Assembly: GCA_024684215.1 (NCBI GenBank)
Contig: JAIKXH010000124.1
Span: forward strand, 1-64,000
DNA: 64,000 bases
Reading direction: 5' to 3'
DNA from: Lachnospiraceae bacterium
GTDB lineage: Bacteria > Bacillota > Clostridia > Lachnospirales > Lachnospiraceae
The translations under genes were made by a program, and so were the position numbers. Shown piece by piece: positions 52,006-58,453 of the stretch. Within the stretch, counting starts at the first letter, position 1; each line of letters begins with the position of its first letter. The notes under the pieces were generated by a model. The model worked only from the letters and a program-made list of their open reading frames with translations, was not told where the DNA came from and did not search any database.

Positions 52006-52899
52006 TTAAGGATGATAAGTACTTGCGACTGCTTTAGACAACTCCGCTACAAACCTTTTCTGTAGCGGAGTAACGGTATCGTTATTATATCCTATATATG
52101 TAGTACGGGAAATCTTTACCATTTCAGGGGTAGAGATTTCTTTTGCTTTATTGGAATCCAGAATATCTTTAACATAGAGCTTTGGAAGGAAAGAAAGTCC
52201 CATACCGGAAATGACCATTTCCTTGATTAGATCTATGTTCTCAACTTCTATTATCTTATTTAGGGTTACCCCTCTTTGCATCAATTGCTCTTTGATAAAA
52301 CTGTGAAACAGGCGCTCTGCGGGAAAAACAAGAATAGGGCAGGATGACAGAGCGCGGTTACTTATGGCATTTTCTTTCCAGAGGGATGTGGAACCAAAGA
52401 GAACCACTTCATCTACAAGTAGAGGAGAGAATGTCATTCCCGGATTAGCCATGCTGTAGTTTGTAATAGAAACATCTATATTATGTTTTTCCAGTTCCTC
52501 AAGAATGTTGTCTGAGGATCTTGAAATAATGGAGAAACGTGTATTCTCATAGGTCTGCATGAAATAGGGCAGATGGTCCCTTAAGAGGTATTGTATAAGG
52601 AGGTTTGAGGAACCTATGCGAAACTGTTCAGAGCCCTGCACGTGCAAGCCTTGAAGCTCAATTTCCATATCGTTGATTGTCTCTAATATTTTCCTTGCAT
52701 GGGGAAGAAATACCTTACCTGCGGGAGTAAGGGAAAGAGATCTCGCATTTCTTTGAAACAATTTAACATTAAGCTGATGCTCTAATTGTTCCAATCTATG
52801 GGAGATTGTAGATTGCGGAACATAAAGCTTTTGTGCTGCTTTAGAGAAACTGTTACATTCGTAGATTGATATAAAAGTAAGCAATTGCACGTCAGTCAT
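52006..52899 (-). CDS. LysR family transcriptional regulator
   Basis: LLTFISIYECNSFSKAAQKLYVPQSTISHRLEQLEHQLNVKLFQRNARSLSLTPAG wHTH. Confidence 0.95.
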   Translation of the reverse strand: MTDVQLLTFISIYECNSFSKAAQKLYVPQSTISHRLEQLEHQLNVKLFQRNARSLSLTPAGKVFLPHARKILETINDMEIELQGLHVQGSEQFRIGSSNLLIQYLLRDHLPYFMQTYENTRFSIISRSSDNILEELEKHNIDVSITNYSMANPGMTFSPLLVDEVVLFGSTSLWKENAISNRALSSCPILVFPAERLFHSFIKEQLMQRGVTLNKIIEVENIDLIKEMVISGMGLSFLPKLYVKDILDSNKAKEISTPEMVKISRTTYIGYNNDTVTPLQKRFVAELSKAVASTYHP

Positions 52900-52913
52900 G
52901 GCATATCCTCACG

Positions 52914-52949
52914 AAAAAAGCGAATCACTTCCGCACAGAAGCAATTCGC
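52914..52949 (-). terminator. Terminator-like hairpin in the lysR 5' leader
   Basis: On - strand: GCGAATTGCTTC tgtgcg GAAGTGATTCGC TTTTTT. All 12 pairs form with two G-U wobbles; only mismatched on the + strand. Confidence 0.7.
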
Positions 52950-53103
52950 CTTTGAATTTCTTATAAATACATTATACATTTTTTTACTATTAAATCAATG
53001 CTGAACAAAGGGAAAAGTACAAAAAACAGCCAAATTCGTTGTGCAAAATATACAAAAAGGCAAAACGTTTGTTGTAAAATTTTATGTATGCAAAAAATGA
53101 ATA

Positions 53104-53126
53104 ATTGAATTCAATATTGAATATTG
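53104..53126. promoter_or_regulatory. Candidate LysR operator
   Basis: ATTGAATTCAAT perfect palindrome overlapping CAATATtgaATATTG, directly upstream of the -35. Confidence 0.5.
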
Positions 53127-53152
53127 ATAAACGGAATTGGCCCTCATAAAAT
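53124..53152 (+). promoter_or_regulatory. Sigma-A type promoter of the ABC/hydrolase operon
   Basis: TTGATA (53124-53129), 17-nt spacer, TAAAAT (53147-53152). Confidence 0.6.
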
Positions 53153-53170
53153 GAACACAACAAAAGCAAA

Positions 53171-53205
53171 GGCGCTTGGCAGAAATGTCAGGCGCCCTTT
53201 TTGTT
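53171..53205 (+). terminator. Intrinsic terminator/attenuator in the ABC operon leader
   Basis: GGCGCTTGGCA gaaa TGTCAGGCGCC CTTTTTGTT: 11 bp with two G-U pairs and GAAA tetraloop, about 12 nt after the predicted start. Confidence 0.75.
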
Positions 53206-53236
53206 AAATAAATACCTGAAGCCGGAGGAAAAAGTT

Positions 53237-54010
53237 ATGAGTGAAAAAGCAATTTTAAAAGTTGTAGGTTTGAGTGTTTCATTCCCAAAGGTGGATGGTA
53301 AACGAGGAGAGAAATATAAAGTAATCTCAAATATGGATCTTGAAATAAACGAAGGTGAATTTGTTTGTGTTCTCGGTCCGTCAGGATGCGGTAAATCAAC
53401 TTTACTGAATTGCGTAGCAGGATTCATTCCTTACGAAGGAATTATATCTTTTAAGAATCACAGCATTACAGGCCCGGGTCCGGAACGCGGAGTTATGTTT
53501 CAGGAATACGGATTATTTCCCTGGTTCAACGTTGAACAGAATATAGGATACGGTCCTAAAAAAAGAAAATGGTCCAAGAAAGAACAGAAAGAGCTGGTAG
53601 ATAAATACGTAAAGATGGTTGGACTTGAGAACTTCAGAAAATCCTATCCGAACCATTTATCCGGAGGAATGAAGCAGAGAGTAAGTCTTGCAAGAGTTTT
53701 GGCGAACAAACCCGAGTTTCTTCTTATGGATGAACCTTTTGCCGCACTTGATGAGCAGACAAGACAGAAACTTCAGGAAGAGCTGTTACAGGTTTGGGAA
53801 CAGGATAAGATCACTTGCATGTTCATAACTCACAGTATCAGCGAAGCGGTTTTCCTTGCGGACAGAGTAATTGTGCTAATGCCCAATCCCGGAAGAGTTG
53901 CACTGAATTTAAGAATCGATCTTCCAAGAATGCGTGACAGAAACGATCCAAGACTCTTGGAATTCAGTAAAGCTATAAGTGATGTTCTGTTTCACAATAA
54001 AGAGGCTTAA
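53237..54010 (+). CDS. NitT/TauT-type ABC transporter ATP-binding protein
   Basis: VLGPSGCGKSTLLNCVAGF; LSGGMKQRVSLARVLANKPEFLLMDEPFAALDEQTR. Confidence 0.92.
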   Translation: MSEKAILKVVGLSVSFPKVDGKRGEKYKVISNMDLEINEGEFVCVLGPSGCGKSTLLNCVAGFIPYEGIISFKNHSITGPGPERGVMFQEYGLFPWFNVEQNIGYGPKKRKWSKKEQKELVDKYVKMVGLENFRKSYPNHLSGGMKQRVSLARVLANKPEFLLMDEPFAALDEQTRQKLQEELLQVWEQDKITCMFITHSISEAVFLADRVIVLMPNPGRVALNLRIDLPRMRDRNDPRLLEFSKAISDVLFHNKEA

Positions 54011-54032
54011 GCGTGGAAGGAGAGTGGCAGTT

Positions 54033-54794
54033 ATGAACAAGGCAAAAGGAAAGATTAAAATCGGAATAAACAAATCTGTAGGAATTATAGCAATCATAGT
54101 TATTTGGGCACTGATATCAGGGATAGGAACAGTTTCGGACTCACTTATGCCTTCACCCTTAACGGTATTGAAAAGACTGATTGAACTTTTTACAAACGGT
54201 ACCATGGGAAAACATGTTTTAGTCAGTATGGTCAGAGTAATAAAAGGCTTCCTTATAGCTCTTGGACTGGCACTTCCAATCGGACTTATTATAGGAACTT
54301 CAAAACCAATCCGGCGTGCACTTGATCCGTTGATTGAATTATTTAGACCGATACCGCCTACTGCAATGATTTCACTGAGTATTCTCTGGTTCGGAATCGG
54401 CGAGGCATCAAAGGTATTCATCATAGCATGGGCTTCCTTTTTCCCCATACTTCTGAATGTTGTGGGTGGTGTTCAGCAGGTTGAAAAAATTCATATACTG
54501 GCGGCAAAAACCCTTGGAGCCAACATGTTCGACATTTTTGTGGACGTAATACTAAGGAGCGCTGTTCCCAATATTGTTATCGGTATGAGAAGCGGATTCA
54601 GCATGGCGTTTATTTCATTGGTGGCAGCGGAACTTATAGCGTCGACTTCAGGTATCGGATATTTCATTCAGGATGCAAGGTATATGTACAGAATCGTTGA
54701 TGTTTTTGTAGGAATCATTGTAATCGGATTTATCGGCTTTGTTTTAAACCAGGTCCTTTTGAAACTTGAGAAGAGTTTAATAACCTGGAAGTAA
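54033..54794 (+). CDS. NitT/TauT-type ABC transporter permease
   Basis: SDSLMPSPLTVLKRLIELF; EASKVFIIAWASFFPILLNVVGGVQQVEKIHILAAKTLGAN. Confidence 0.92.
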   Translation: MNKAKGKIKIGINKSVGIIAIIVIWALISGIGTVSDSLMPSPLTVLKRLIELFTNGTMGKHVLVSMVRVIKGFLIALGLALPIGLIIGTSKPIRRALDPLIELFRPIPPTAMISLSILWFGIGEASKVFIIAWASFFPILLNVVGGVQQVEKIHILAAKTLGANMFDIFVDVILRSAVPNIVIGMRSGFSMAFISLVAAELIASTSGIGYFIQDARYMYRIVDVFVGIIVIGFIGFVLNQVLLKLEKSLITWK

Positions 54795-54849
54795 AAAGGA
54801 TGAAAAAGCGAAATGCTTATTCATATATTTCATGACGGAGGTAAAGATT

Positions 54850-55893
54850 ATGAAAAGAAACATTTTTAAGAAAGTTACCGCTATGGTAGTGGCAGCAGGA
54901 ATGGCAATTGCGTTGGCCGCCTGCGGAGGTGGTAAGCAAGAAACGGGATTGACTTCCGGACTTGAAACTAAGAAACTTTCATTGGGTGCTGCAAGAGATA
55001 CACAGCTTGCTCCCATAATCATGTGTGCTATTGAAAAGGGATATTTCAAGGAGCAGGGATTGGATGTAGAATTGACACTATTTGCGTCGGGAGGAGATTT
55101 AACAGCGGCAGTTGCATCAGGTGATATTCAGCTTGGAAGCGCAGGTGATACTCCTACTACAGCTCTTCTTACATCAGATTACGGAAAATTTGAATTTATC
55201 GCCAGAACAACAAACCTTGGTGGCGCACTTGCACTTGTTACTTCTGAAGATATTCAGACTCCTCAGGATTTGGAAGGAAGAACTATCGGTTACGCGGCAG
55301 GTAACACTTCAGAGGCTTTGTGGCAGGCACTTGTAGCAACAACAGGTATCGATGAGTCAAAGGTTAACCTTGTAGCACTTGGCGCAGCAGACATGCTTTC
55401 AGCATATGAAACCGGTGACATTGAGGGATTTGTTATCTGGGAGCCAACTGTAACCAATGGTGTTAAGCTTGGCGCTCACAGACTTCTTACAGGAAGTAAG
55501 TCATACTTTAACGGTGTTGAAGAAGACTTCGATTGCCTTAACTCATATGCGCTTTTATCAGGAAACAAGGAGTGGATTGAAAAGAATCCAAACACTGTAG
55601 TTGCAGTGCTTACCGCTATGAACGATGCTTGTGAGTGGTTAAACGGCAACATGGGAGAAGGTGCTGAAATCGTTTCTAAGTGGCTTGAACTTGATTATGA
55701 AGACTGCCTTGGCATGATGCAGAGAAATGAATACGGACTTAGTGTGGATGACAGAACTATGGATGATTTGAAAGCCAGTGCGGAGTTCCTCTATGGCGGT
55801 GAAAAGATTCCTTTTGTACCTGAGTTCAGAGAAGTATATGATGGTTCATACCTTGAAAAGATTGATGCAAGTCTTAACGGAGTTACCAAATAA
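54850..55893 (+). CDS. NitT/TauT (NMT1/SsuA-like) ABC substrate-binding lipoprotein
   Basis: Signal peptide with LAACGGG; LGAARDTQLAPIIMCAIEKGYFKEQGLDVELTLFASGGDLTAAVASGDIQLG. Confidence 0.92.
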   Translation: MKRNIFKKVTAMVVAAGMAIALAACGGGKQETGLTSGLETKKLSLGAARDTQLAPIIMCAIEKGYFKEQGLDVELTLFASGGDLTAAVASGDIQLGSAGDTPTTALLTSDYGKFEFIARTTNLGGALALVTSEDIQTPQDLEGRTIGYAAGNTSEALWQALVATTGIDESKVNLVALGAADMLSAYETGDIEGFVIWEPTVTNGVKLGAHRLLTGSKSYFNGVEEDFDCLNSYALLSGNKEWIEKNPNTVVAVLTAMNDACEWLNGNMGEGAEIVSKWLELDYEDCLGMMQRNEYGLSVDDRTMDDLKASAEFLYGGEKIPFVPEFREVYDGSYLEKIDASLNGVTK

Positions 55894-55905
55894 AGGAGTT
55901 TGAAA

Positions 55906-56580
55906 ATGCGTAAGATTATAGATTTAACATGTCCTCTCGGACAGGAATACGTAACGGTTTTATCGGGACATCCTGCTGTGGAATATGAGATGATCCACAC
56001 TCACGAAAAAAATAAGAGAACCAATGCCTGGATTAAATTCAGTATTCACGTCGGCACTCATATCGACCCGCCTTATCATTTTGATCCGAATGGAAAAACC
56101 ATAGATGAAATACCGCTTGATTATTTTATAGGTGACGCCTATGTGGCAGAACTTGTAGGAAAACTCGAACCTCAGGCAGCCATTTCTGTGGCAGATATTA
56201 AGAATGCCGGAATAACTGAGGAGATGATTCATGACAGTTATTTGATCATTCATTCCGGATGGTCCGAGAAGGCATACGGAACACCGGATTATTACACAAA
56301 GAACTATACCTTGAGCGTTGAACTTTGCAAGTGGCTTGTGGAAAACAAGGCACGAGGAGTATGCATGGACCATCCCTGTGATCCCGATGCACATGAACCC
56401 TTTGACGGAACGGAATGTCCCGCGCATCGCGCACTTTTACCTAACCACTGCCTGCTCATAGAGTGCTGTACTAACTTTAGTGCTCTATCAAAGAAAAAGG
56501 TGGAGTTACACGCTATTCCCTTGAAAATAGCTCACGGTTGCGGCGGACCTGCCAGAGTATTTGCTATTGAAGAAGATTAA
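55906..56580 (+). CDS. Cyclase family (kynurenine formamidase/isatin hydrolase-like) metal hydrolase
   Basis: HVGTHIDPPYHF matches HxGTHxDxPxHF; LIECCTNFSAL. Confidence 0.88.
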   Translation: MRKIIDLTCPLGQEYVTVLSGHPAVEYEMIHTHEKNKRTNAWIKFSIHVGTHIDPPYHFDPNGKTIDEIPLDYFIGDAYVAELVGKLEPQAAISVADIKNAGITEEMIHDSYLIIHSGWSEKAYGTPDYYTKNYTLSVELCKWLVENKARGVCMDHPCDPDAHEPFDGTECPAHRALLPNHCLLIECCTNFSALSKKKVELHAIPLKIAHGCGGPARVFAIEED

Positions 56581-56603
56581 CTAAACTGAAAGAAGGTGGC
56601 AGC

Positions 56604-57467
56604 ATGGAATACATGGTAGCGGCAGCTCAGATGGGTCCAAACTCAGAGGATGTAATGGTCAATGCTAAAAGAATATGCGATATGATGGCGAAAGCAGCAG
56701 ATCAGGGAGCGGATATCGTTGCTTTTCCTGAAATGAGCTTGTCGGTATATTACTGCGTTGATTATATGAGAGATTACTACAAATACCATATTTCGGACGA
56801 TCATCTCGCAATCAAAATGATTCGTGAGAAGGCTAAGGAACTTGGAATAAACGTAGCCTTTGGCTATGCAGAGGAGGCCGACAAAATATACTATAATTCA
56901 GCGCTTCTTATTGACAGAAAAGGAAAGGTGGCCGGAAAGTACCGAAAGGTACACATCCCTTCACCGATGGTTAGCGAACATGCCGCCAATTTCGAAAAGA
57001 ACTACTTCGCTGCAGGAAATCTTGGATTTCCTGTAGTGGAAGTGGACGGAGTAAAAATCGGAATGCAGATTTGCTATGACAGGCACATGCCGGAAGGATA
57101 CAGAGTAATGGCTTATCATGGTGCGGATATTGTATTTAATATGACGGCTACTGTTTCTTATGGTGTGGGCTGGAGAAGCGAAGCATGGGAGCTTTTGCTT
57201 AGGGCAAGAGCTTTTGAAAACGGTATTTTTGTTGTCGGAGTTAACAAGTCCGGAGATGAGGAAGGACACGGGAAAGGCTATTACGGCCACAGCATGGTGA
57301 TCACACCTGTGGATGCAGGCAAAATATTAAGCCGATTGGATACAACAACCGAAGATACGCTTTTGGTTCAAAAGATAAACCTTAAAGATATTCATGAAGC
57401 TAGAAATCGTGTGGGCTGGATGAGAGATTTGGTGGCTCAGGAACGTGCATGGTATGACGGAGTATGA
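56604..57467 (+). CDS. Carbon-nitrogen hydrolase (nitrilase superfamily)
   Basis: Putative E-K-C triad: AFPEMSLS, YRKVHIPSP, GMQICYDRHMPEG. Confidence 0.92.
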   Translation: MEYMVAAAQMGPNSEDVMVNAKRICDMMAKAADQGADIVAFPEMSLSVYYCVDYMRDYYKYHISDDHLAIKMIREKAKELGINVAFGYAEEADKIYYNSALLIDRKGKVAGKYRKVHIPSPMVSEHAANFEKNYFAAGNLGFPVVEVDGVKIGMQICYDRHMPEGYRVMAYHGADIVFNMTATVSYGVGWRSEAWELLLRARAFENGIFVVGVNKSGDEEGHGKGYYGHSMVITPVDAGKILSRLDTTTEDTLLVQKINLKDIHEARNRVGWMRDLVAQERAWYDGV

Positions 57468-58453
57468 TTGACAGTTTAGTATATGCATTTCATGCTATTA
57501 CACCAATTATATTATTGATCCTAACCGGATATCTGCTGAACAGGAAAGGTTTCTTTAGCGACGAATTCTTGAAACGTGCAAACAAGCTGGTATTCTATGT
57601 TTTACTTCCATGCACTTTGTTTACCAATATTTATCAGGTTGGAGATATCGGAGAAATCAACTGGCGTCTGGTTTTCTATGCGGTATTCACAGTAACGGTG
57701 ATTTTCTTTCTGGGAATTATTGCAGCGCTGTTATGGGTTAAAGATGATAGACAAAAAGGTGTCGTGATCCAATGCGTTTTCAGATCAAACTACGCCATAA
57801 TCGGACTGTCATTTGCACAGGCCCTTGGCGGAAATGGCGCAGTTGCGGTTGTGGGTGTCCTGAGTGCATTTACAATCCCGTTGTTTAATATACTTGCAGT
57901 TGTTTCCATGGCGATATTTATCAAGGATGGAAAAAGACGGGTTGATATAAAGAAAATCCTTAAAAGGATAATTACAAATCCATTGATAATTGGATGTGTT
58001 CTCGGGTTGATAGCGCTGGCAATTAAGAGTGCGCTGCACTATGAAGGAAACGGATTTTCATTTGTTCTGACCTATCTTTCCTATCTTGCAAAGGCATCCA
58101 CAGCCATTGCGCTTTTGGTTTTGGGAGGACAGTTTAACTTTACAGCGGTGGGTGGACTTTTAAGGCAGATAACCATTGGCACAATCGGAAGACTGGTGAT
58201 TGCGCCCGCTGTCGGAATTGGAGCGGCTTATCTTATATCGACGTATACAGGATTTCTTGATCTCGGAACAGCTGAATATTCTGCTTTGATCGGATTATTT
58301 GCTTCTCCCGTGGCGGTATCAAGCGCAGTAATGGCAACAGAAATGGACAATGATGCAACATTGGCGGGCCAGTATGTATTCTGGACAAATGTAGGAGCCA
58401 TAGTATCCGTTTTTCTACTGGTGGTAATAATGAGAAATTGCGGATTATTATAA
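57464..58453 (+). CDS. AEC family transporter
   Basis: ITPIILLILTGYLLNRKGFFSDEFLKRANKLVFYVLLPCTLF; overlaps the previous stop. Confidence 0.88.
   Translation: MIDSLVYAFHAITPIILLILTGYLLNRKGFFSDEFLKRANKLVFYVLLPCTLFTNIYQVGDIGEINWRLVFYAVFTVTVIFFLGIIAALLWVKDDRQKGVVIQCVFRSNYAIIGLSFAQALGGNGAVAVVGVLSAFTIPLFNILAVVSMAIFIKDGKRRVDIKKILKRIITNPLIIGCVLGLIALAIKSALHYEGNGFSFVLTYLSYLAKASTAIALLVLGGQFNFTAVGGLLRQITIGTIGRLVIAPAVGIGAAYLISTYTGFLDLGTAEYSALIGLFASPVAVSSAVMATEMDNDATLAGQYVFWTNVGAIVSVFLLVVIMRNCGLL

Follow-up and report, generated by a model that had tools for sequence, protein, structure and literature searches.

Twin leader terminators of a divergent lysR gene and ABC transporter operon as candidate ANTAR-type attenuators of a nitrogen regulon

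In a 64,000-nt stretch of Lachnospiraceae DNA (the window), a lysR gene and a divergent ABC transporter operon each carry an intrinsic terminator in the leader, and the base of each terminator overlaps a small hairpin with the same hexaloop. Similar elements precede nitrogen genes elsewhere, and the genome encodes a single ANTAR-domain protein. We propose that the two terminators are default-off, ANTAR-type attenuators of a nitrogen regulon that would be opened by ANTAR binding, with LysR as a second input; we place the probability of this reading at about 0.7. The first-pass annotation had suggested that both transcripts are controlled by attenuation or antitermination in addition to LysR, through an RNA-binding protein or a ligand-sensing RNA. 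The attenuation is supported by the evidence below, and an RNA-binding protein of the ANTAR type is the best candidate.

The lysR gene (52006–52899, minus strand) encodes a LysR-family regulator of 297 aa with Pfam HTH_1 and LysR_substrate domains. A 337-nt intergenic region separates it from the first gene of the operon (53237–54010, plus strand), which encodes the ATPase of a NitT/TauT-type ABC transporter. The remainder of the operon (54033–58453, plus strand) encodes a permease, an NMT1-type binding protein, a cyclase-family hydrolase, a carbon-nitrogen hydrolase and an AEC-family permease. The predicted enzymes (cyclase-family hydrolase, N-carbamoylputrescine-amidase-like), together with the NMT1-type binding protein, would fit nitrogen release from an amide or ureide. 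In a codon-usage comparison with 292 sampled genes, each 200 aa or longer, lysR scored lowest and the genes for the AEC permease, cyclase, permease and ATPase fell in the lowest 5%. The operon was absent from all other congeners examined as well as from hundreds of other genomes in the family and class, no relative of it was found on plasmids or viral contigs, and the single fully syntenic relative was L007, a goat-caecum Clostridia MAG. Based on codon usage and on the absence of the operon from the other congeners examined, the lysR–operon pair (52006–58453) looks horizontally acquired.

The two strand-specific terminator hairpins reported by the first-pass annotation proved real; its coordinates, sequences and wobbles were correct, as was the sequence of its predicted promoter. 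The ABC-leader terminator (53171–53205, plus strand) consists of a stem at 53171–53196 with a GAAA loop, followed by the tail CTTTTTGTT. The lysR-leader terminator (52914–52949, minus strand) consists of a stem at 52949–52920 with a loop of about TGTGCG and a run of six T residues (52919–52914), which ends 2–3 nt ahead of the lysR SD (GAGGA). Each stem contains two G-U wobbles in its own transcript, and the own-strand folds (−20.0 and −19.9 kcal/mol; z = −5.3 and −6.6) were stronger than the folds of the opposite strands (−13.1 and −10.8 kcal/mol). An equally strong terminator appeared on neither strand in any of 1000 dinucleotide shuffles of the intergenic region. With d scores of 20 and 26 against a genome median of 18, both terminators are of ordinary quality, and what is unusual about them is their position. 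In 464 kb of the genome, no strong terminator lay 100 nt or less from the start codon in 36 other divergent-pair leaders, and none lay near the start codon in 14 such leaders in two congeners, which leaves the two window leaders as the only cases among 52. In G785, the distant genome that carries L007, 3 of 50 divergent-pair leaders had a strong terminator near the start codon, one of them belonging to its own lysR (otherwise 2 of 49). The T run ends about 14 nt from the start codon in the lysR leader and about 31 nt from it in the ABC leader, so that a promoter 3' of the hairpins is hardly possible and any translated transcript must read through; lying between predicted start and gene, the terminators must be passed by every transcript of these genes.

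Promoters were predicted by consensus only: TTGATA-N17-TAAAAT for the operon (53124–53152, plus strand; start at about 53159) and TTGATT-N16-TATAAT for lysR (52971–52998, minus strand; start at about 52964). Each matches the consensus at 10 of 12 positions, a level reached at least as often in shuffles of the region. From the predicted starts, the terminator stems begin after 11–14 nt in both leaders. This geometry bears on a ligand-sensing leader RNA, for which a leader terminator in a transporter operon would be a common riboswitch layout. However, only about 5 nt precede the small hairpin, the stem follows closely, and the terminator fills most of the remaining leader. Rfam gave no match at or above the gathering score in the window, and only chance-level matches in 52700–53400. 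With no space left for an aptamer and no Rfam match above chance level, the ligand-sensing RNA considered by the first-pass annotation is unsupported and not needed; we regard a riboswitch as highly improbable.

A perfect palindrome, ATTCAATATTGAAT (53109–53122), ends 1 bp before the −35 element of the ABC promoter and is a candidate LysR operator, and L007 has a comparable palindrome upstream of a predicted −35 element. These palindromes suggest classical LysR activation as a second input, with the operator role being putative. It could also be argued that the inverted repeats of the leaders are themselves LysR DNA operators, or that the short RNAs are independent small RNAs, given the palindromic nature of LysR-type sites and the remark of Naville and Gautheret (PMC2965389) that predicted attenuators may overlap them. 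We consider this very improbable. Every imperfect pair, four in the window stems and another two in L007, is a G-U pair in the sense RNA, as would suit pairing at the RNA level, and disrupts the symmetry of the DNA; T runs follow the stems, and 53109–53122 offers a better palindrome.

About 5 nt after the predicted start, each leader contains a mini-hairpin that the first-pass annotation had missed: AAGC-AAAGGC-GCTT in the ABC leader (53164–53177, plus strand) and AATTC-AAAGGC-GAATT in the lysR leader (52943–52958, minus strand). The resemblance of the predicted transcript starts over 16 nt emerged from a comparison that presupposed no motif, and the identical hexaloop AAAGGC, with A at position 1 (A1), G at position 4 (G4) and a C:G closing pair, is common to both. 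The C:G closure was a condition in the later genome scans and not in the initial leader comparison or hairpin identification. Because the 3' half of the loop and the 3' arm (GGCG onward) form the 5' arm of the terminator, mini-hairpin and terminator are mutually exclusive. Across the elements, the mini-hairpins ranged from 0 to −4.5 kcal/mol and the terminators from −13 to −25 kcal/mol; being so much weaker, the mini-hairpin should lose to the terminator, leaving the leader off by default, unless a protein holds it. Alternative antiterminators formed with sequence further upstream were unconvincing. Leader peptides were also rejected: short ORFs cross the terminators, but their ATGs overlap the −10 elements or have no proper SD.

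If the promoter-proximal terminators were unregulated and merely kept LysR and transporter expression low, the mini-hairpins would be by-products of A-rich tracts before GGCG stems. Consistent with this, AAAGGCG also begins ordinary terminators of this genome, G785 has an ordinary terminator with the same loop apex, CTTCNNNGCGGAAG, as the lysR terminator, and predicted 5' terminators often belong to ABC operons (PMC2965389). Yet the 5' arms of the mini-hairpins differ (AAGC and AATTC in the window, AAAGC in a leader of another genus), each pairs with its own 3' arm, and AATTC lies outside the lysR terminator, in which it plays no role. In addition, relative to other loop classes, the A1/G4 class is enriched at 5' leaders, and it precedes nitrogen genes, as detailed below. 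We therefore consider unregulated terminators quite unlikely.

The first genome scan covered 1.32 Mb and looked for C-NNNNNN-G mini-hairpins that had stems of 4 bp or more and overlapped a strong terminator. Four matches fell into the A1/G4 class, against 6 in total for the other 15 loop classes, and all four A1/G4 matches lay in 5' leaders: the two window leaders and a tandem pair (loops AAAGGC and AAGGGC; L127 6926–7003, minus strand) ahead of one GlnQ-type ABC operon. A second scan of 1.68 Mb (60% of the genome) used looser criteria that allowed 3-bp stems and yielded 7 A1/G4 matches against 19 for the other 15 classes together (mean 1.3); the new A1/G4 matches lay before gdhA, before a liv operon and at one ordinary 3' terminator that follows an efp-like gene. 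By a criterion set after the matches were known, and with genes called by a simple script rather than a standard gene finder, 6 of the 7 A1/G4 matches were leader-like, as opposed to only about three places among the control classes. A further element, found under looser criteria and with a slightly different terminator geometry, precedes a polar-amino-acid ABC operon (L144). Besides AAAGGC, the A1/G4 loops in other leaders included AAGGGC, AAGGGT, AATGGG and AAAGAG. Several elements are weak: the liv and gdhA stems have 3 bp, and the glnQ-A mini-hairpin is at about 0 kcal/mol.

A BLAST search with the plus-strand leader led to a third AAAGGC element in G033, a genome of another genus of the same family. 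There, TTGACA-N17-TATACT is followed by AAAGC-AAAGGC-GCTTT and then by a terminator, upstream of purF; 4 kb away, the hairpin CGGC-AAAGGC-GTCG of asnB again overlaps a terminator. An IS200-type transposase-like gene separates the first of these elements from purF (L107 7126–8074, plus strand). The gdhA product (NADP glutamate dehydrogenase), PurF and AsnB pass curated NCBIfam cut-offs; the transporter names reflect best matches only. As far as these predicted functions go, the element-bearing leaders belong to nitrogen metabolism or to amino-acid and nitrogen transport throughout, except for lysR, whose neighbour is its likely nitrogen operon. The nitrogen function of the downstream genes was no part of the search criteria. 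The window elements prompted the hypothesis and hence do not support it independently, whereas the remaining elements do. No such element was found in the glnA leader, nor at gdhA of the L007 genome.

The search of the genome for ANTAR antiterminators that the first-pass annotation had recommended yielded exactly one ANTAR-domain protein, encoded directly downstream of glnA (L012 1114–1662, plus strand; Pfam ANTAR domain). Its N-terminal half has no Pfam match to a receiver domain. The nearest PDB chains are 6wsh, a response regulator that we take to be EutV, and 1qo0 (AmiR). How far the leaders resemble ANTAR targets can be judged against published rules. EutV and NasR prefer a loop with A1, G4 and a terminal C:G pair, the latter being selected in NasR SELEX and conserved in eut leaders, and the P2 hairpin of ANTAR targets is located at the terminator base (PMC3369931, PMC7496416). 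In both window leaders, the hexaloop has A1 and G4, the terminal pair is C:G, and the P2-like hairpin overlaps and excludes an intrinsic terminator. What they lack is the tandem arrangement of P1 and P2 hexaloop hairpins with a short linker, which is 5–12 nt in the E. faecalis eut leaders. Eight of nine elements have no P1 hairpin, and the one candidate, AU-only and 24 nt off in the plus-strand leader, is not credible. Likewise, the scanned 60% of the genome contains no dual motif with a terminator. The predicted starts are in fact so close that there is no room for P1. P1 was essential for EutV in vivo (PMC3369931), but NasR does bind P2 alone, about tenfold more weakly than the P1P2 pair, and ANTAR response regulators in monomeric form are believed to bind to a single hairpin just as to a pair (PMC7496416).

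The missing P1, a defining part of ANTAR targets, leads to the possibility that the same hairpin switch is operated by a different RNA-binding protein or by factors associated with the polymerase. The shared portion could also be taken for a CAAAGGCG sequence at the extreme 5' end. On the other hand, the loop A1 and G4, the C:G closure, the overlap with the terminator base and the nitrogen genes are all ANTAR-like, and the only ANTAR protein of the genome is encoded beside glnA; a non-ANTAR factor is thus an unlikely explanation. That the leaders work like an ANTAR attenuator is well supported, with the absence of P1 setting them apart from the two-hairpin family in one defining feature.

The leaders were compared with those of L007, the one relative found, in which the operon proteins are 51–79% identical to those of the window and LysR is 36% identical. 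The L007 lysR leader has a promoter, at once a strong terminator of different stem sequence, and then the SD. The L007 ABC leader has no terminator, and no AAAGGC antiterminator was found in the L007 lysR leader. The covariation comparison of homologous leaders proposed by the first-pass annotation was thus confined to this one relative, in which terminator control is conserved in position for lysR and not for the ABC operon. The case is carried instead by the AAAGGC hairpin common to the two window leaders and by the nitrogen genes that have elements of this kind. The apex CTTCNNNGCGGAAG was also considered as a conserved signal, being identical at 11 of 14 positions between the window and L007 (a level reached by about 0.1% of hairpin pairs), but was rejected as specific because of its occurrence in the ordinary G785 terminator. 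Separately, in L007 (7028–7098, minus strand), a second small hairpin (GCTTTTTGAAAGGAGC) that follows the lysR terminator would mask the lysR SD. The apex of that terminator, CTTC-AAAGCG-GAAG, fits the A1/G4 and C:G rule but lies within the terminator itself.

In the ANTAR attenuator model that we infer, RNA polymerase would start a few nucleotides upstream of the C:G-closed AAAGGC mini-hairpin. Without protein, the transcript would refold into the more stable terminator and stop after about 40–50 nt. Under nitrogen shortage, an ANTAR protein, probably the glnA-linked one, would bind the hexaloop hairpin, which would then keep its 3' arm, block the 5' arm of the terminator and let polymerase read through. 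Plentiful nitrogen would thus mean off, and ANTAR activation read-through. LysR, probably at the palindrome by the ABC promoter, would give substrate-specific activation, so that the operon would require both signals, with lysR itself also under the nitrogen signal. Since other nitrogen genes of the genome have switches of this kind ahead of them, nitrogen shortage probably releases both transcripts at the same time. A broader proposal, on which we would give even odds, is that one-hairpin, 5'-terminal ANTAR switches make up a nitrogen regulon of the family and are recognised by a glnA-linked ANTAR protein that lacks a normal receiver domain. This regulon may have captured a rare LysR and its target operon, both of which would be nitrogen-gated at the RNA level, the operon being substrate-gated at the DNA level as well.

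Both the definition of ANTAR target RNAs and the searches for them assume a pair of hexaloop hairpins, and single 5' hairpins would escape such searches. If the proposal is true, one-hairpin switches stand before gdhA, several transporter operons and lysR, and purF and asnB have them in a second genus. This would open nitrogen control in these Clostridia to direct tests and raise the question of how an ANTAR protein works with one loop.

Three known systems are close to the leaders described here. Predicted 5' terminators, including those of ABC transporter leaders (Naville and Gautheret 2010, PMC2965389), share the premature terminator in an ABC transporter leader, but these classes are predictions without a common antiterminator, whereas a common antiterminator hairpin is proposed here. 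In the LoaP/dfn system (PMC12691694), as in the present model, a leader hairpin of a terminator-bearing operon is read by an RNA-binding protein in Bacillota. The LoaP hairpin is of the UNCG type and lies apart from the terminator, while the hexaloop hairpin here overlaps it; a LoaP-like hairpin was rejected, as the terminator loops are GAAA and TGTGCG/GTGC and the only upstream hairpin is the AAAGGC hexaloop, with no UNCG tetraloop. The ANTAR-target leaders of Enterococcus eutP/G/S/A, Klebsiella nasF and Pseudomonas amiE share with the window leaders an A1/G4, C:G-closed hexaloop hairpin at the terminator base that excludes the terminator, the association with nitrogen genes and an ANTAR protein in the genome. 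In contrast to those leaders, which have two hexaloop hairpins, the elements here have one, almost at the 5' end of the predicted transcript; Pfam recognises no receiver domain in the only ANTAR protein; and there is one element for a pathway regulator and one for the operon that it probably controls.
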